Positions 11,024 to 42,166 of a DNA stretch of 42,376 nt are shown piece by piece. Source of the DNA: Candidatus Omnitrophota bacterium (GTDB taxonomy: Bacteria > Omnitrophota > Omnitrophia > Omnitrophales > Aquincolibacteriaceae). Under the pieces are notes generated by a model. The model was given only the letters and a program-made list of their open reading frames with translations, was not told the origin of the DNA and ran no database searches. A program made the translations under genes and the position numbers. Each line of letters opens with the position of its first letter. The stretch's first letter is position 1. The stretch lies in assembly GCA_903856085.1 (NCBI GenBank), contig CAIOAT010000003.1:128318-170693 (forward strand). The letters run 5' to 3'.

Positions 11024-11296
11024 TTGACTAAAAAAGATATTGTGATGAAAGTTTCGAATGAAACGAATCTCACCCAGATCGATGTCAAGAAGATCGTCCA
11101 GAAAACCCTCGATGTTATTTCCGATAGCCTTCAGCGTGGCGAGACCGTGGAGCTCAGGAATTTCGGTGTTTTTAAAGTGAAAAACCGGCGCGGCCGTTTG
11201 GGGCGTAATCCCCGGACCGGCGAGGAAGTGACGGTCCCCGAAAAAAAAGTCGTGGTGTTCAAGCCCGGACTCATCTTAAAGATCAAGGTGAAGTAA
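11024..11296 (+). CDS. HU/IHF-family DNA-binding protein
   Basis: This is a small histone-like nucleoid protein that bends DNA as a dimer. The 90-residue chain has the helical N-terminal body (about 1-45), the LRNFGVFKVKNR strand, and the DNA-binding arm signature GRLGRNPRTGEEV with the intercalating proline. It closes with VVVFKPGLILK. The start is TTG at 11024, supported by AAAGGAGGTGG six to eight bases upstream. The next upstream or downstream in-frame starts would break the family N-terminus TKKDIV. It has its own promoter. HU, IHF-alpha and IHF-beta cannot be told apart by eye here. Confidence 0.93.
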   Translation: MTKKDIVMKVSNETNLTQIDVKKIVQKTLDVISDSLQRGETVELRNFGVFKVKNRRGRLGRNPRTGEEVTVPEKKVVVFKPGLILKIKVK

Positions 11297-18748: not shown

Positions 18749-18975
18749 CTTTCGCGCCATCCGATCTATCCTTGAAACGGCCATTGTTCTCTTAGCCTTC
18801 CGCGAGGTGTTAGAGTGATTGAAGGGGGGAGATGATTGGACCTACTTGAAAGTCTTCCTAGGCAGCCGATTTTAGAGAGGGTATAATCGCCCAGTTTTTT
18901 AAGCGTGTTCCCAAAAGTCTTCGGCTGATACCCTTGACGGATGGGAGCATTTCATCGATTGAAGAAAGTGAATTT

Positions 18976-21900
18976 ATGACCATTCAAACTCCAAGAATAT
19001 TGATCATCGGCGAGCCCAAGACGGGGACCAGCGCTCTTTTTTACAAGATCAAGCCCTGTATGCCTTCCGGAACACTCTTTCTTTTCGAGCCAAAGGATCC
19101 GTTAGAGGCTTTGGAAATGGTGCCTCCTGATCAGGCTGTTTTGACTAAGATCCATATTAATCATTTTACCGATTCTGTTCTCCAGGAGATCTTTAAAAGG
19201 TACAACAAGCTTGTTTGTATTGTTAGGGATTCGAGGGATACCATTATTTTCCAGGCTCTTTGGCGCTCGCAAGTTTTTTATCAAGATGTAAGTCGCATCT
19301 ATACGCTCTATCGTCTTCTGAAGATGCTGGAGAGCGGGAGCCAAGATGTCGGCATTGCGGCTTTATATAGAGAGATATTCAGTGAGAAACATGACGTTAA
19401 GAATGCGAAGGAAAAGATCATTTCAGTTGTAAAGGCAAATAATCCTTTTCTCTATAAATATGAAGACATGATTTGCGGGAACGATGCGACGTTGAAGCAA
19501 TATCTCGGGATGGATGTGCCAGCCGAACCTGAGGATCATGTGACGATAAGGAGTGTTGTCAGGACCAAGACTTCCGGGAACTGGAGGCACTGGTTTAGGC
19601 CTTGTGATGCGGTCTATTTTAAAGAGGGTATGCAAGATTTTCTTCGCTTTTTTGGTTATGACGCTGACGATTGGGAAATCTCCCAGGCTCAGCATATCAA
19701 CCCTGAGCATTGTTCCGGTTATTTTCTAAAACTTATTGATCAAAATCGACAGGACAAGGGTCTTTCTCGCATAAGCCGGGAAGAACTGGAACAGGAATCC
19801 AAGGGTTTATCAGGTCCTAAGGCGATCATTTGTGGTTATGAACACGGCGGAACAACACTTCTTTCGGAGATTCTTCGAAGGCATCCTTCTGTCGGTTCTG
19901 GATTTGAGGGCGGTTTTCTTCTCGCAAATCGTCCGGCAGATTTTCCGGGGATTAATCCTTATGCCGGCATGATGATGTGTTCATGGAAGCTCAATCGGGA
20001 AGAGCTTGTTAAAATATGTGCTACGGATAGCTGGTATGACGTTTATCCAAGACTTGCCGCGGTATCGTCTTTGATTCATGAAGGGCACGCGTGGGTCATT
20101 GATAAAACGCCTCAATATCTTCGCTCTCTTGCAGAGGTCATGAGAAAAGTGCCAAACGTCCCCGTTCTTTTGATCGTCCGGGATCCAAGGGCCGTGATAT
20201 GGTCGTATTTGAAGAGATCCACCGTTCCCGAAGGAGGCGCTCAGAAGATGATCGAAGGTTTCTGTGACAGATACCACAGCTACTGGCAGGGCTATCAGAG
20301 GGCTGTGGCTCAAGGATTTTCTTCTCGAATATTGGTTATTCAATACGAAGACCTGTGCTTGAGGCCTCAAGAGTATGTGCAGAAAGTCTGTGATTTTCTG
20401 GGAATCGACTTTGAAGAGCGCTTCTTGAACTTTGAGAGCACATTTCCGAATGTTTATGGAAAACAAGTGTCTTCTGATTATATGTTCGAGTATCGCGAGC
20501 ATCTTTCGAAAGAACATCAGGAAATGATTCTGGCACGCCTTCAATGTTCTGAGGCATGGTTCTGGGAGGGCGGGAGCTGTCAGAGTTCAGAACATGCCGG
20601 TTCCAAGTCAATCATTCGGCGAAAGAAGAATAATGCTCTGAATCTGAAAGAATATGTGCAGAGCATCAAGCAGGGCGCACCCGGTCTGGAAAAGCTTAAT
20701 GATCAGTTAGCGGTTTTGCTTTTGCGCGAAGTTTTTAAACGGATCGCCTCGGAGATTGAGGCGGCTCCGGAGGGGGTGGTGAAAGTACAAGGCCTGGGTC
20801 GGTTCATCACAAAACCGGTCGTGCCGGAGAAAGAGGGGAAGAAAGTTGTTCCCAAGCAGGTCATCTTCAGAGATTTGCAGAAGACGCTTAATCGAGAGGA
20901 TTCTTATGCAAAGTGGATTGAACAGAATGAGCCGAAGGATGACGAACTGAACAGGCAAAGGTTGGTCAAATTTAACGAAATGCCTAAGATCAGCATCATC
21001 ACGCCGGTCTTTAAAACACCGGAAAAAATGTTGATAGAAATGATAGAAAGTGTCATAGCGCAAACATATTCCTGCTGGGAACTTTGTATTGTAGATGGCG
21101 GTAGCGGTAGCACTCGCATACAAGAGATTCTGTGCGAGTACGCCGGGAAAGATAAAAGAATCGCGGTCAAATTTTTCGAGAAGAATGAGGGTATGGCGGG
21201 TAATACCAATACAGCGATTTCACTTGCGACGGGTGATTTTATAGCTTTTTTGGATCACGATGATATCCTGGCCCCTGATGCTCTATTTGAAGTTGTGAAG
21301 GCTATCAATCATCATCCTCAGGCAGAGCTTTTGTATTCAGATGAGGATCATATCTCAGAGGATGGCGAAATCAGATGTAAGCCGTTTTTTAAGCCTGATT
21401 TTGCGCCGGACACGTTAAGAAGTTACAATTATATTTGTCATCTAGTAGTTTTAAAAACGGAGCTAGGCCGGTCTCTTGGTTGGATTCGCTCGGGTCTTGA
21501 GGGTGCTCAGGACCACGATCTGATATTGCGGGTCACGGAGAAAGCCCGGGAAATCATCCACATCCCAAAGATTCTCTACCACTGGAGAAACCATTCCGCC
21601 TCAATGTCACGCAGCACGGACACCAAAACTTGTGCGCGCGCATCGGGAGAAAAGTGTTTGTCGGATCATTTGGAAAGGATTGGCCTAAGCGGAAAGGTCC
21701 AGGTCGATGAATCGCTTTTTCTTTATAGGATCCATTATGTGCTTCGGGTGGCACCGCTTGTTTCGATCATTATTCCGAACAAGGATCAGGTCGAGCTTTT
21801 GGACCGATGTGTAAGATCGATCCTCCAGAAATCAACCTATAAAAATATTGAGATCCTCATTATTGAAAACCGCAGCGAGGACGGAAACACTTTTCTTCTT

Positions 21901-22581
21901 TATGATAAATTGAAGGAGCGCAAAAATATCCGGATCATTCCATGGGATCACGCGTTTAACTTTTCTGCCCTGAACAATTTTGCGGTCAAGGAAGCCCGGG
22001 GAGATGTTGTCTTATTTTTGAATAATGACACCGAGGTTATTACTCCAGATTGGATCGAGAGCATGCTTTCGTACGCGCTCAGGAAAGACGTTGGCGCTGT
22101 CGGGGCTAAACTTTATTATCCGGATCTGACTATCCAGCATGCGGGGGTCATTATTGGCCTTGGAGGCATGGCAGGGCATTCCCATAAAAATTTTCCGAAA
22201 GACCATGGCGGTAATGCCAGAAGACTAAGCATTGTTCAGAACCTAAGCGCTGTCACGGGGGCATGCCTGATGATGAGAAAGAGTGTTTTTGAGGAAGTGC
22301 ATGGATTTGAAGAAGAACTCACCGTGGCCTACAATGACGTCGATCTTTGTTTGAAAATTCGAGAAAAGGGATACCTGATTGTCTGGACTCCGTACGCGGA
22401 ATTGTATCACGACGAGTCTAAAACCAGGGGGTATGAGAATACTCCTGCGAAAGTTTTGAGGGTCAAGGGGGAAATGGAATTCATTCGTCGCAGGTGGCCC
22501 AGCATTTTCCAGGAGGGCGACCCCTATTACAATTGCAACCTGACATTGGCGAGGCAGGATTTTTCTATCAGAATCCGTTGA
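18976..22581 (+). CDS. Tandem sulfotransferase-tandem GT2 glycosyltransferase fusion
   Basis: The 1201-residue protein is modular. Two P-loop sulfotransferase domains come first. One starts with ILIIGEPKTGTSALFY (about residues 8-23) and runs to about 230. The second starts with AIICGYEHGGTTLLSEIL (from about 282) and runs to about 540, with LLIVRDPRAVIWSYLKRS as its 3'-phosphate site. A linker (558-634) has an HU-like look. Two GT-A glycosyltransferase family 2 domains follow, at about 671 (ISIITPVFKTPEKM, then DHDD) and about 928 (VSIIIPNKDQVELLDR, then LNNDTEV). It probably builds and sulfates a surface polysaccharide or glycan at the cytoplasmic face. I prefer ATG 18976; a TTG at 18934 would add 14 residues. 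No other glycan genes are adjacent, which is unusual. Confidence 0.85.
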   Translation: MTIQTPRILIIGEPKTGTSALFYKIKPCMPSGTLFLFEPKDPLEALEMVPPDQAVLTKIHINHFTDSVLQEIFKRYNKLVCIVRDSRDTIIFQALWRSQVFYQDVSRIYTLYRLLKMLESGSQDVGIAALYREIFSEKHDVKNAKEKIISVVKANNPFLYKYEDMICGNDATLKQYLGMDVPAEPEDHVTIRSVVRTKTSGNWRHWFRPCDAVYFKEGMQDFLRFFGYDADDWEISQAQHINPEHCSGYFLKLIDQNRQDKGLSRISREELEQESKGLSGPKAIICGYEHGGTTLLSEILRRHPSVGSGFEGGFLLANRPADFPGINPYAGMMMCSWKLNREELVKICATDSWYDVYPRLAAVSSLIHEGHAWVIDKTPQYLRSLAEVMRKVPNVPVLLIVRDPRAVIWSYLKRSTVPEGGAQKMIEGFCDRYHSYWQGYQRAVAQGFSSRILVIQYEDLCLRPQEYVQKVCDFLGIDFEERFLNFESTFPNVYGKQVSSDYMFEYREHLSKEHQEMILARLQCSEAWFWEGGSCQSSEHAGSKSIIRRKKNNALNLKEYVQSIKQGAPGLEKLNDQLAVLLLREVFKRIASEIEAAPEGVVKVQGLGRFITKPVVPEKEGKKVVPKQVIFRDLQKTLNREDSYAKWIEQNEPKDDELNRQRLVKFNEMPKISIITPVFKTPEKMLIEMIESVIAQTYSCWELCIVDGGSGSTRIQEILCEYAGKDKRIAVKFFEKNEGMAGNTNTAISLATGDFIAFLDHDDILAPDALFEVVKAINHHPQAELLYSDEDHISEDGEIRCKPFFKPDFAPDTLRSYNYICHLVVLKTELGRSLGWIRSGLEGAQDHDLILRVTEKAREIIHIPKILYHWRNHSASMSRSTDTKTCARASGEKCLSDHLERIGLSGKVQVDESLFLYRIHYVLRVAPLVSIIIPNKDQVELLDRCVRSILQKSTYKNIEILIIENRSEDGNTFLLYDKLKERKNIRIIPWDHAFNFSALNNFAVKEARGDVVLFLNNDTEVITPDWIESMLSYALRKDVGAVGAKLYYPDLTIQHAGVIIGLGGMAGHSHKNFPKDHGGNARRLSIVQNLSAVTGACLMMRKSVFEEVHGFEEELTVAYNDVDLCLKIREKGYLIVWTPYAELYHDESKTRGYENTPAKVLRVKGEMEFIRRRWPSIFQEGDPYYNCNLTLARQDFSIRIR

Positions 22582-22733
22582 GGCGGAGAATCGAATCCTT
22601 ACGAGTCGACGCCCTGAGAAACTCGCCTAGCCAGTCCACTCCGACAGAGATATAATCAGCCAGGCTCAAATTTGAACTCAGCCAGTTCGAGAAGTGCAAA
22701 AGTTCTTTTAAAATTGCGAGTTGTAAATTGAAT

Positions 22734-22807
22734 GGGCCTGTAGCTCAGTCGGTTAGAGCAGGCGACTCATAATCGCTTGGTCCCTGGTTCGAGTCCAGGC
22801 AGGCCCA
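22734..22807 (+). tRNA. tRNA-Ile(CAU), lysidine-type (tRNA-Ile2)
   Basis: The 74-base cloverleaf has a perfect acceptor stem GGGCCTG / CAGGCCC, a T-arm CCTGG-TTCGAGT-CCAGG, and the loop CTCATAA with anticodon CAT. The anticodon arm and flanks (GCGACTCATAATCGC) match the isoleucine tRNA that is read as AUA after TilS modifies C34, not the elongator or initiator Met tRNA. CCA is not encoded. A TATAAT box lies at about 22652, with a weak -35. Confidence 0.93.
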
Positions 22808-22862
22808 ATTCTTTTTACATGCAAGGCAAATGTCGAAACATCCGTTTTCCGTTTTTTCTTTC

Positions 22863-35981: not shown

Positions 35982-35998
35982 ACAGCCGGATGTTCTTC

Positions 35999-36637
35999 AT
36001 GACAGAACCCTCAAAAAAAAGAGTTATTGCTTTCGTTGACGGGCAGAATCTATTCTATGCCGTCAAGAAAGCGTTCGGTTATCCCTTTCCAAATTATGAT
36101 CCCTCAGCTCTTGCTCGCCGGGTCTGTGAACTCAATAGATGGAATTTAGAAAGCGTTTGCTTCTATACGGGCGTTCCTGATGCTCAGGACAAGCCTTCTT
36201 GGAATCAGTTTTGGAATAAGAAACTTGCTGTTATGGGTACACGTGGTGTGAAGGTTTTTCGTCGTCCCCTGCGTTATCGCAATCAAACGATCATCCTTCC
36301 GGACGGCCGTTCATCGACGACCTTAGTGGGACAAGAAAAGGGAGTAGATATCCGAATTGCTTTAGATATGGTCCGAATGGCACATCAAAAAGTTTATGAT
36401 GTCGCGCTTTTATTCAGCCAGGACCAAGACTTAACTGAAGCTGTGGATGAAGTGAAAGTGATTGCGCAAGAACAAAAGCGATGGATGAAGGTTGCTTCAG
36501 CTTTTCCCGTCAGTCCCACATATAGCAATCGAAGAGGTATCGACAAGACCGATTGGGTTCCTGTCGATCGTGCGACATACGATGCCTGTATTGATCCCAA
36601 TGAGTACCGGACAGGCAAGATTCAAAAAAAACAGTAG
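35999..36637 (+). CDS. NYN-domain ribonuclease (LabA/DUF88-like)
   Basis: NYN domains are PIN-like, metal-dependent RNA nucleases. The 212-residue protein has the N-terminal IAFVDGQNLFYAVKKAFG with the Asp-Gly-Gln-Asn core (D14, N17), a central EKGVDIRIALDMV with the second acid (Asp near 118), and LLFSQDQDLTEAVDEV with the third acidic pair, as in LabA-like proteins. I chose ATG 35999, since the upstream ATG at 35990 has no ribosome binding site. It is the first gene after the tRNA-Cys junction, and NYN proteins are common in defence islands, but a defence role here is only suggested by place. Confidence 0.82.
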   Translation: MTEPSKKRVIAFVDGQNLFYAVKKAFGYPFPNYDPSALARRVCELNRWNLESVCFYTGVPDAQDKPSWNQFWNKKLAVMGTRGVKVFRRPLRYRNQTIILPDGRSSTTLVGQEKGVDIRIALDMVRMAHQKVYDVALLFSQDQDLTEAVDEVKVIAQEQKRWMKVASAFPVSPTYSNRRGIDKTDWVPVDRATYDACIDPNEYRTGKIQKKQ

Positions 36638-37864: not shown

Positions 37865-38236
37865 ATGGCTGATAAAAAAGTAATTTTTGTAGCCTTTGCC
37901 ATTGAAGACGAGAGGCAGAGGGATCTTCTTAAGGGACAATCGTTAAGTACGGACTCACCTTTCGAATATATCGATATGTCAGTGAAAGAGGCATATGATT
38001 CCGAATGGAAAGAGCGTGTCCGCACTCGCATCCGTCGCTCAGACGGTGTAATTGTTCTTGTAAGCCAGAATTCTCTTACCTCGAACGGTCAGAAATGGGA
38101 AATTGCATGTGCCCAGGAAGAAAAGAAGAAGCTGCTTGGCATTTGGATTTATAAAGACGATCGCACAAACCTATCTGGAGTTAATACTGTGGCATGGACG
38201 TGGCCGGCACTTGAAAAGTTTATCAATAGTCTCTAA
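37865..38236 (+). CDS. TIR-like domain protein 1 (Thoeris ThsB-type)
   Basis: The 123-residue protein is a single TIR-like domain of the MTH538/ThsB type. VIFVAFAIEDERQRDLL forms strand A and helix A. SPFEYIDMSVKE and WKERVRTRIRRSDGVIVLVS cover strand C to D. QKWEIACAQEEKK carries the putative catalytic glutamate E79, which aligns with E80 of the second TIR. In Thoeris the TIR senses infection and makes a cyclic ADP-ribose signal from NAD+. The segment before the Glu, SQNSLTSNG, differs from the canonical CGE-TH-A of the second copy. A caspase-like gene starts 19 bases later. Confidence 0.82.
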   Translation: MADKKVIFVAFAIEDERQRDLLKGQSLSTDSPFEYIDMSVKEAYDSEWKERVRTRIRRSDGVIVLVSQNSLTSNGQKWEIACAQEEKKKLLGIWIYKDDRTNLSGVNTVAWTWPALEKFINSL

Positions 38237-38255
38237 TCTTGGAGGATGACTTGCA

Positions 38256-39203
38256 ATGCGAAAAGCTCTTGTAGTTGGAATAAACGACTACCCAGTCGCA
38301 CCGCTGAAGGGCTGTGTGAACGATGCCGCCGCAATTGCTTCCATGCTGGAGGCGCACGGTGACGGCTCGCCGAATTTTGCGGTCAAGCGAATGACGCAGC
38401 CTGGCGTTCAGATAACTCGATCATTGCTTCGCGAGGCAATTGAACAGCTCTTTGGCAGCGAGTGCGACATCGCGCTATTTTACTTCTCTGGCCACGGCCT
38501 GATCGGCAGCACGGGAGGGTATCTCGTTACTCCGGATTATAAAAAATACGACGAAGGCATTCCAATGGATCAAATTCTGTCCTTGGCAAATCAGTCAAAA
38601 GCAAAGGATAAGGTCGTAATTTTCGACTGCTGTCACTCTGGTGCGTTCGGAACCCCCAAGATCACAGACTCTGCGGTCGCACAACTCGCCGAGGGACTTT
38701 CCGTCCTAACGGCTAGCAGGGATTCAGAATCTGCATTGGAAGTCAACGGCTGCGGCGTTTTCACTTCGCTGGTTGTTGATGCTCTCAGAGGAGGAGCATC
38801 TGATTTGCGAGGGAATATCACGCCAGGAAGCATTTACGCCTATGTCGATCAAGCCTTGGGAGCGTGGGATCAGCGGCCGATATTCAAGACCAACATAACG
38901 CGCTTCGTTTCGTTGCGCACAATCCCTCCGCCCGTGCCATTAGCAAAACTGCGATTGCTGTGCACATATTTCCAGAATCCACAGTACGAGTATCATCTTG
39001 ACCCATCATACGAATTCACGGACGCGCAGAAGAATGATATCAATGTTGCGATTTTCAAAGATCTTCAGAAATATGAAAGTGTTGGCCTAGTTATTCCAGT
39101 CGGTGAAGAGCACATGTATTTTGCTGCGATGAATTCCAAAACGTGTCGCCTTACCGCACTAGGTTATCATTACTGGAGATTGGTAAATGAGAAGAAGATC
39201 TAG
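38256..39203 (+). CDS. Caspase-like protease (peptidase C14), probable Thoeris effector
   Basis: The 315-residue protein has a full caspase p20/p10-like domain (about 1-220): it opens KALVVGINDYPVAPLKGCVND, has the catalytic His in YFSGHG (H80) and the catalytic Cys in IFDCCHSG (C126). The C-terminal part (about 225-315, from PLAKLRLLCTYF to the end) is a separate domain of about 90 residues, a candidate ligand sensor. GGAGG precedes the ATG. In TIR/caspase immunity the signal made by the TIR activates a caspase that degrades proteins and kills the infected cell. Residues and neighbours agree, but activity is untested. GC content looks higher than in the flanking TIR genes. Confidence 0.85.
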   Translation: MRKALVVGINDYPVAPLKGCVNDAAAIASMLEAHGDGSPNFAVKRMTQPGVQITRSLLREAIEQLFGSECDIALFYFSGHGLIGSTGGYLVTPDYKKYDEGIPMDQILSLANQSKAKDKVVIFDCCHSGAFGTPKITDSAVAQLAEGLSVLTASRDSESALEVNGCGVFTSLVVDALRGGASDLRGNITPGSIYAYVDQALGAWDQRPIFKTNITRFVSLRTIPPPVPLAKLRLLCTYFQNPQYEYHLDPSYEFTDAQKNDINVAIFKDLQKYESVGLVIPVGEEHMYFAAMNSKTCRLTALGYHYWRLVNEKKI

Positions 39204-39274
39204 AACCTCTCCAGCTAATTTATCCGGCGATTTCGGCAAGCAGCTTCATTGACTTTCAAAAGGAGACTACGTAC

Positions 39275-39667
39275 ATGGGCGAAAATAAAAGGGTTTTTAT
39301 CAGTTTTGATGTTGATCACGACGCAGGGACTAAAGAAATGTTGGCTGGACAAGCAGATCTTCCTGATAGCCCGTTCGACTTTACTGATGCTTCGGTAAAG
39401 GAACCTTTAACAGGTGACTGGAAGGAAAAAGTGCGGCACCGAATGGCCAACGTCGATGTCGTAATTGTTCTGTGTGGCGAACATACGCATACGGCAAGTG
39501 GCGTTGCAGACGAGGTAACAATAGCCCAAGATACGAAGACCCCATATTTTCTCTTATGGGCTTATGCAAATAAGAATTGCACAAAGCCCACATCAGCGAA
39601 GTCATCGGACAAGATTTATAAATGGACATGGCCAGGTCTTAAGTCCTTGATAGCAGGCGCAAGGTGA
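39275..39667 (+). CDS. TIR-like domain protein 2 (canonical Thoeris ThsB-type)
   Basis: The 130-residue protein is a ThsB-like TIR: RVFISFDVDHDAGTKEML, SPFDFTDASVKEPL, DWKEKVRHRM, then VVIVLCGEHTHTASGVADEV with the putative catalytic E80. It keeps the CGE-HTHTA run typical of family members, unlike TIR 1. A Trp-rich end (YKWTWPGLKSL) is shared with TIR 1 (WTWPALEKF). AAAAGGAG precedes the ATG. Its stop overlaps the GTG start of the following membrane protein (GTGA), so expression is coupled. It is most likely the NAD+-using signal generator. Confidence 0.87.
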   Translation: MGENKRVFISFDVDHDAGTKEMLAGQADLPDSPFDFTDASVKEPLTGDWKEKVRHRMANVDVVIVLCGEHTHTASGVADEVTIAQDTKTPYFLLWAYANKNCTKPTSAKSSDKIYKWTWPGLKSLIAGAR

Positions 39668-40885: not shown

Positions 40886-42166
40886 ATGAGTGACAATGTT
40901 GATCGCACGAAACCAGTCGTTATTTTGCATGGTTATAGTGACCATTCCACGTCATTCCAACCTCTTGCCCGTTTTTTAAATGATAATGGATTTAAGGTTG
41001 TCGACCTTTGGCTCGCTGATTATTTGTCCATGTACGACGAGCTTACAATTCATGATTTAGGACAAGCTATGGGGAAGGCGCTCGATGACCAAAAAATTCC
41101 GCAACTGCCGAAAAGGTTTGATTTAATTGCCCATAGTACGGGCGGGCTTGTCGTTCGTTCCTATCTTTCGCATTATTTCTATGGAAATCCAGATCGATGT
41201 CCTATAGAGCATCTTCTTCTACTTGCTCCGGCTAATTTTGGGTCCCCACTTGCTACGCTTGGTAAATCAATGGTGGGCCGCCTTTTTAATGGTCGTGATT
41301 GGGATCATCTATTTCAGACAGGGACTCGCATCTTGCAGGCTTTAGAATTGGCGTCCCCAATAAGTTGGGAAATGGCACGCACCGATCTCTTTGATCCTCA
41401 AAACCCCTTGTTTAAGACCAAGAATATTTACACCACAATTCTTATTGGATCTGAATCATATGGTGGGCTAAAGGATGTAACTTATGAAAATGGATCGGAT
41501 GGGACCGTCCGTGTTTCTGCGTCAAATTTGAATGCTCGTTATTATCAGTTGTACTTTCATCCGTTTAATGAACCTTTGCTCGAGGAGATTCCTCGCCAAT
41601 ATGACCCGATTGCTTTTGGAGTTTTGCGTGGCTTTAATCATGGAACTATTATTAATCCGTCCAATGCGAACAAAGATGCCGGTCCTTTAGGCGAAATAAT
41701 TTTGAATAGCTTGCAAATCAATAGTGAACAGGCTTATCAAGATCATATTGGACAATTGGCGGATAGGACAAAAAACACATTTATTGCTGGCCAAGCTCAG
41801 TTTAATTCAAAAAATCAGTGGTACCATGAGTATCAAAACTTTACGGTGAGAGTGTACGATCAGTATCGTGAGATGATACCCGACTATTTCCTCGAGTTTT
41901 TCCAAAGAGATGACCCGCAAGAGAAAATTATGGAAAAAATTCATTCGGAGATTCTCGAAAAGGTGAGAGTTTACTCTGATGATGCCAGCCACAGGTCTTT
42001 TCTTTTTGATATTACGGATTTAAAAAAAGATGTTTTGGATAAGAAAGGGGAAATAGCTCTCAATATCTCTGTAGCTTCGCGAAGTAAACGAATTTCTTAT
42101 TGCAATCCACAGAAGGCTCTTTTGATTGCTAATCAAAACGAAACCCAATTTATTACACCCAATTGA
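40886..42166 (+). CDS. Alpha/beta hydrolase (lipase/esterase-like)
   Basis: The 426-residue protein has an alpha/beta-hydrolase fold with the full triad in place: oxyanion region PVVILHGYSDH (about 10-20), nucleophile S84 in IAHSTGGLV, D205 in ENGSDGTV, and H252 in FNHGTII. The region after about 265 is a distinct, helical and charged extension with no recognised family. AAGGAGA precedes the ATG. The stop TGA is the first three bases of the probable IS3-family end, so the true C-terminus may be longer and truncated by insertion. A phospholipase or esterase effector is a plausible role in a defence island. Confidence 0.8.
   Translation: MSDNVDRTKPVVILHGYSDHSTSFQPLARFLNDNGFKVVDLWLADYLSMYDELTIHDLGQAMGKALDDQKIPQLPKRFDLIAHSTGGLVVRSYLSHYFYGNPDRCPIEHLLLLAPANFGSPLATLGKSMVGRLFNGRDWDHLFQTGTRILQALELASPISWEMARTDLFDPQNPLFKTKNIYTTILIGSESYGGLKDVTYENGSDGTVRVSASNLNARYYQLYFHPFNEPLLEEIPRQYDPIAFGVLRGFNHGTIINPSNANKDAGPLGEIILNSLQINSEQAYQDHIGQLADRTKNTFIAGQAQFNSKNQWYHEYQNFTVRVYDQYREMIPDYFLEFFQRDDPQEKIMEKIHSEILEKVRVYSDDASHRSFLFDITDLKKDVLDKKGEIALNISVASRSKRISYCNPQKALLIANQNETQFITPN

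Follow-up and report, generated by a model that had tools for sequence, protein, structure and literature searches.

Could a single bacterial polypeptide both assemble a glycan and sulfate it, and from which genes would such a protein have been put together? This question is raised by a gene in a 42,376-nucleotide stretch of a Candidatus Omnitrophota contig (hereafter the window), whose product carries sulfotransferase and glycosyltransferase domains in one chain (Table 1). Little is known of bacterial sulfated glycans, whose sulfation is usually the work of separate enzymes, and a partial search of the literature returned no description of a sulfotransferase-glycosyltransferase fusion. The first-pass annotation of this locus had proposed one 1201-residue chain with two sulfotransferase and two GT2 domains, and the frame, which contains no internal stop codon, the domain matches and the motifs all bore this out. 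Its count of four domains had to be raised to five, residues 555-636 forming an additional conserved domain; the order in the chain is ST1, ST2, HU/IHF-like, GT2-A and GT2-B. Besides this HU-like domain, the earlier reading had left out the unfused versions of the gene and the repeated sulfotransferase-glycosyltransferase fusions in the phylum. It was right, within the window, that the gene stands alone, with no polysaccharide cluster around it: dnaG, rpoD and a receiver-domain gene lie upstream, and tRNA-Met (22733-22808) and the genes for a TPR protein and a phosphoribosyltransferase (PyrR-like) downstream, so that the fusion gene is surrounded by housekeeping genes and lies outside any polysaccharide operon. 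A promoter-like site precedes the gene, but such sites were found 12 times in the region against 6.3 expected, which makes it weak evidence. Because the 1201-residue protein has no transmembrane-like stretch (highest 19-residue Kyte-Doolittle mean 1.55), it is probably cytosolic or peripheral.

Table 1. Features of the fusion gene, with positions counted from the first nucleotide of the window.
Feature	Position	Strand	Remarks
Promoter-like site TAGGCA-17-TATAAT	18859..18887	+	88 bp 5' of ATG; consensus match only
Whole gene	18976..22581	+	ATG 18976, stop 22579-22581; 1201 aa, single open frame
ST1, divergent sulfotransferase domain, aa 5-265	18988..19770	+	Homologues in G319 and G142; hhalign
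ST1 P-loop / 5'-phosphosulfate loop PKTGTSAL, aa 14-21	19015..19038	+	
ST1 3'-phosphate motif RDSRDTIIF, aa 84-92	19225..19251	+	Alignment to G319 and G142
ST1 RTKTSGNWRHWF, aa 196-207	19561..19596	+	RTKxxGNWRHWF-type; resembles SULT PAPS motif RKGxxGDWKxxF
ST2, Sulfotransfer_3 domain, aa 282-509	19819..20502	+	PF13469 1.8e-25, PF00685 1.4e-18; TPST1/2 E ~1e-9
ST2 P-loop EHGGTTLL, aa 289-296	19840..19863	+	Aligned to TPST PRSGTTL loop
ST2 Glu311	19906..19908	+	Aligned with TPST catalytic Glu
ST2 3'-phosphate motif RDPRAVIWS, aa 402-410	20179..20205	+	Arg and Ser retained
HU/IHF-like domain, aa 555-636	20638..20883	+	Own-genome and G319 homologues; AF2 and Foldseek
GT2-A glycosyltransferase domain, aa 668-880	20977..21615	+	LDHDD 21250-21264 (aa 759-763), GAQDHDL 21502-21522 (aa 843-849)
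GT2-B glycosyltransferase domain, aa 926-1190	21751..22545	+	LNNDTE 22018-22035 (aa 1015-1020), AYNDVDL 22327-22347 (aa 1118-1124)

Elsewhere in the window, near the contig end, a gene for a caspase-like peptidase lies between two ThsB-like TIR genes (37865-39667, plus strand; PF08937, PF00656 and PF08937, with PADLOC ThsB and caspase models), an arrangement resembling a TIR-caspase defence module of the Thoeris type. Upstream of these genes, the protein encoded at 35990-36637 (plus strand) has a match (5.8e-16) to HEC-09, a candidate defence model of PADLOC, and together they possibly form a defence island. The GC content at 40886-42166 is low (0.41).

Both GT2 domains combine the family profile with a metal-binding DxD-type motif and a base motif. 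Pfam Glycos_transf_2 (PF00535) matched in two stretches, the better one at residues 673-782 (5.4e-50 for the whole protein), and GT2-B was also covered by Glyco_tranf_2_3 (residues 929-1148). Tandem GT2-GT2 proteins are widespread, an E. coli plasmid example lying in a capsule-type cluster with ABC-type polysaccharide export genes, and presumably include a Myxococcus RfbC-like protein. The top solved-structure match was chondroitin synthase (4.2e-21). A chondroitin/hyaluronan-type polymerase was considered and dropped, the matches being crossed: it is the second domain of chondroitin synthase that GT2-A matches, and the first that GT2-B matches weakly.

For ST2, Pfam Sulfotransfer_3 matched residues 283-481 with 90.9 bits against a curated cut-off of 27, and the best solved-structure matches were tyrosylprotein sulfotransferases (TPSTs). 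Aligned to these, ST2 keeps Thr293 and Thr294 of the 5' loop, Glu311, whose TPST counterpart has a catalytic role, Lys377, Arg402 and Ser410. At the position of the usual P-loop Arg it carries His290; since a homologue with 31% identity, encoded beside rfb genes on a Sulfitobacter plasmid, also has His (EHTGTTL), this residue looks like a subfamily trait. Given the TPST matches, the sulfotransferase domains might act on a protein, by tyrosine sulfation, or on a small molecule, with the GT2 domains glycosylating the same product. We consider this improbable: the TPST match reaches only about 1e-9, Sulfotransfer_3 spans many acceptors, and the relatives described below lie in glycan clusters, as the tandem GT2-GT2 relative on the E. 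coli plasmid lies in a capsule-type one.

ST1 reached no Pfam cut-off (Sulfotransfer_1, E 0.045), and this was the weakest value among three ST1 sequences, its homologues in the genomes G319, from another family of the phylum (L065:7440-10376, 58.6% identity), and G142 (L066:7855-8733, 32%), having E values of 0.0012 and 0.0002. A profile built from the three sequences was aligned to a sulfotransferase profile with an hhalign probability of 96.7 and a score of 71.8, while 200 column-shuffled control profiles scored at most 22.2. By this profile comparison ST1 is a sulfotransferase, of a family that Pfam fails to detect. Structure prediction from the three sequences gave a pLDDT of 40, too poor for a fold search. 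Neither ST1 nor ST2 had a match in viral contigs or phages, and the ST1 of G142 had none among plasmids. ST1 retains the P-loop Lys (K/R in the alignment), Glu38, Lys58, Arg84 and the RTKTSGNWRHWF motif, of which R196, T197, G201, W203, R204, W206 and F207 are invariant in alignment A1; the SULT motif that it resembles is the C-terminal PAPS motif of those enzymes. Its 3'-phosphate motif differs from those of G319 (RDPRDAIIS) and G142 (RDPRDIIIS), with Pro replaced by Ser at residue 86 and the 3'-phosphate Ser by Phe at residue 92, both positions being intact in the two relatives. The Phe codon (TTC, 19249-19251) is one base off a Ser codon and could be a true change or a base-call error.

The first-pass annotation had named missing PAPS-binding residues in a P-loop region as what would speak against its proposal; we found none missing from ST2 and, in ST1, a change at one position only, the Ser-to-Phe replacement at residue 92. 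Because Phe replaces the 3'-phosphate Ser in ST1 and His replaces the P-loop Arg/Lys in ST2, the activity of one of the domains, or of the two, may be low or changed. Both changes in the 3'-phosphate motif and the weakest Pfam score of the three sequences would also suit a protein whose activity resides in ST2 and the GT2 domains alone, with a degenerate ST1 that is retained because it serves in folding, acceptor binding or dimerisation. We regard such a degenerate ST1 as rather unlikely, given the retained P-loop Lys, Glu38, Lys58, Arg84 and RTKTSGNWRHWF motif and a dN of 0.27 against a dS of 1.55 in the comparison with G319. In the HU-like (0.53 against 1.75) and GT (0.22 against 3.48) parts, too, dN is well below dS, a rough estimate with dS near saturation, which argues that all three parts are under constraint.

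The remaining domain, residues 555-636, shares about 50-52% identity with a small protein that the same genome encodes separately, inside a glycosyltransferase cluster (L030:7662-8006, minus strand, C13). Its AF2 model (pLDDT 54) has the topology a-a-b-b-b-a, and the top 11 Foldseek matches in the PDB were all of HU/IHF type (best E 0.012). Pfam PF00216 (Bac_DNA_binding) gave no match to the domain at E values up to 10, nor were there matches in Pfam as a whole, PHROGs, PDB sequences, plasmids or viral contigs, and the hhalign score of the HU-like profile against 12 genuine HUs (18.2) was exceeded by 3 of 200 shuffles. On the strength of the modelled fold the domain appears HU-like, and we do not class it as HU. 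Since the NPxTG motif of the DNA-bending arm, present in 12 of 12 genuine HUs, is missing from all four HU-like sequences, the domain is probably a dimerisation or docking module, and a DNA-binding role is unlikely. One genuine HU is encoded at about 11024-11290 of the window. The association of an HU-like domain with glycosyltransferases would extend the range of uses known for this fold.

Within a comparison set of 384 sampled genomes of the phylum, several of these parts occur unfused. G319 encodes a complete HU-GT2-GT2 protein of 658 residues (L093:7245-9221), which is 63% identical to residues 555-1200 end to end (657 columns) and whose first residue aligns at residue 555 of the fusion protein. 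The same 45-kb contig encodes CysD, CysNC with APS kinase, a standalone HU-like protein, the 978-residue protein with N-terminal ST1 (L065:7440-10376), a Sulfotransfer_3 protein, other sulfotransferase-like proteins and several glycosyltransferases. In G142, the ST1 and Sulfotransfer_3 genes lie about 2 bp apart, with an ATP sulfurylase-APS kinase gene about 6 kb upstream. Judged from these loci, the fusion gene joins parts that are found separately in sulfoglycan clusters of relatives. Strong ST1 matches were present in 3 of the 384 genomes and the HU-like domain in 2, both of which also have ST1, a co-occurrence with a chance of C(3,2)/C(384,2), about 4e-5. The full five-domain arrangement was found in a single sampled genome, its own fragmented draft.

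The relatives also carry further sulfotransferase-like genes. Besides ST1, the 978-residue protein of G319 has a middle sulfotransferase-like region (HFGMDKTGSSSIQ, no Pfam match) and a Sulfotransfer_2 domain, and is apparently a triple sulfotransferase fusion. A 358-residue G319 protein (L093:11196-12272) that contains a P-loop-like HFGMPKTGSTSIQ and matched no Pfam family resembles this middle region, and possibly represents another undescribed sulfotransferase family. In G142, three consecutive related sulfotransferase genes with a KCAGSTF-type P-loop (L066:5109-7852) immediately precede the paired genes for ST1 and Sulfotransfer_3; the third of them matches Sulfotransfer_2.

That the parts are separate genes in G142 and G319, and that the sequence comes from a 50-contig draft, could also mean that the long frame is an artefact, in which separate genes have been joined by read-through or by an error of sequencing or assembly. 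This is unlikely, and we give it very little credence: the reading frame is kept across both junctions, and the HU part begins with CTG instead of ATG, which is unlike what one lost stop codon would leave. Moreover, in G319 ST1 is likewise fused onward to other sulfotransferase domains and the HU-like domain is already fused to GT2-GT2, and the GC content is alike along the gene (0.44-0.51 by domain). Most housekeeping neighbours have a GC content of 0.51-0.55 and the G319 cluster one of 0.43; the low value of the fusion gene, close to that of the G319 cluster, fits lateral acquisition but is no proof of it.

The sulfate donor could be made by the host itself, since PAPS synthesis is predicted from its genes for CysD and CysNC (with APS kinase), located in C29 beside Stf0-type and Sulfotransfer_1 genes. 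Besides the HU-like protein and a GT2-GT2 protein (44%), the C13 cluster of the same genome contains two genes of the Sulfotransfer_3 family, as well as transport genes and others of glycan type, and in G003, of the same genus, a GT2-GT2 relative (56%) is encoded about 2 kb from an APS kinase. The initial suggestion that the fusion adds sugars and sulfate in one pass to a surface glycan thus gained support for its link to sulfated glycans, from the unfused parts in PAPS/sulfotransferase/GT clusters of G319 and G142 and from the genome's own CysD and CysNC, whereas the single pass and the surface glycan are points that we infer.

Taken together, the gene product is probably a soluble enzyme with several functions in the synthesis of a sulfated glycan, with two predicted GT2 activities and predicted sulfotransferase activity. 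The catalytic activity, substrates, reaction order, surface location and role of the HU-like domain are what we infer from the comparisons above. The two GT2 domains would take two sugars from nucleotide-sugar donors and add them, one after the other, to a growing acceptor that is perhaps lipid-linked, while ST2, and probably ST1, would move sulfate onto this acceptor or onto the newly added sugars from PAPS supplied by the CysD/CysNC encoded elsewhere in the genome. Three genes, for ST1, for Sulfotransfer_3 and for a complete HU-GT2-GT2 protein, would have been joined to give rise to the fusion gene. More tentatively, it might represent a one-chain mode of sulfoglycan assembly, in which a pair of different sulfotransferases and a pair of glycosyltransferases work on one acceptor, held together by an HU-fold, non-DNA scaffold recruited from a nucleoid-type protein, with ST1 and the HU-like domain as new, unnamed families of sulfoglycan clusters. 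The fusion and its traceable unfused parts name candidate partners, and offer a tractable protein for coupled synthesis and sulfation.

How does this protein compare with known systems? The tandem GT2-GT2 proteins of plasmid-borne capsule-type clusters (E. coli, Azospirillum, Rhizobium) have the same two GT2 domains and align with 83-92% of the G319 protein at about 43-46% identity, but most of their matches begin past the HU-like part and no sulfotransferase is annotated under the match. Bifunctional glycosaminoglycan polymerases such as chondroitin synthase likewise hold two GT-A domains in one chain, although chondroitin synthase has no sulfotransferase and its GT order is not collinear with ours. 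With Sulfotransfer_3 and TPST-type enzymes, ST2 shares the P-loop, the catalytic Glu and the 3'-phosphate Arg and Ser, but it sits in a five-domain chain and has His for the P-loop Arg. The closest counterparts, at 63% identity over the whole 658-residue protein and 58.6% over ST1, are the HU-GT2-GT2 and ST1-fusion proteins of G319; these are, however, two separate proteins encoded about 14 kb apart on one contig, and ST1 is joined there to other sulfotransferase-like domains rather than to Sulfotransfer_3. Finally, an N-terminal sulfotransferase followed by a glycosyltransferase in one chain recurs in the phylum, as ST3-GT2 in G019 (L067:1146-3503), ST3-GT2-GT2, with two GT2-type stretches, in G270 (L068:6271-8934) and ST3-GT9 in G312 (L069:6170-8599), where ST3 denotes Sulfotransfer_3, and because of these fusions such a chain is not in itself unique. 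They differ from the protein described here in having a single sulfotransferase and different glycosyltransferases, and the HU-like domain was not found in them; as far as sampled, a chain that unites an HU-like domain and two GT2 domains with two different sulfotransferases is unique.
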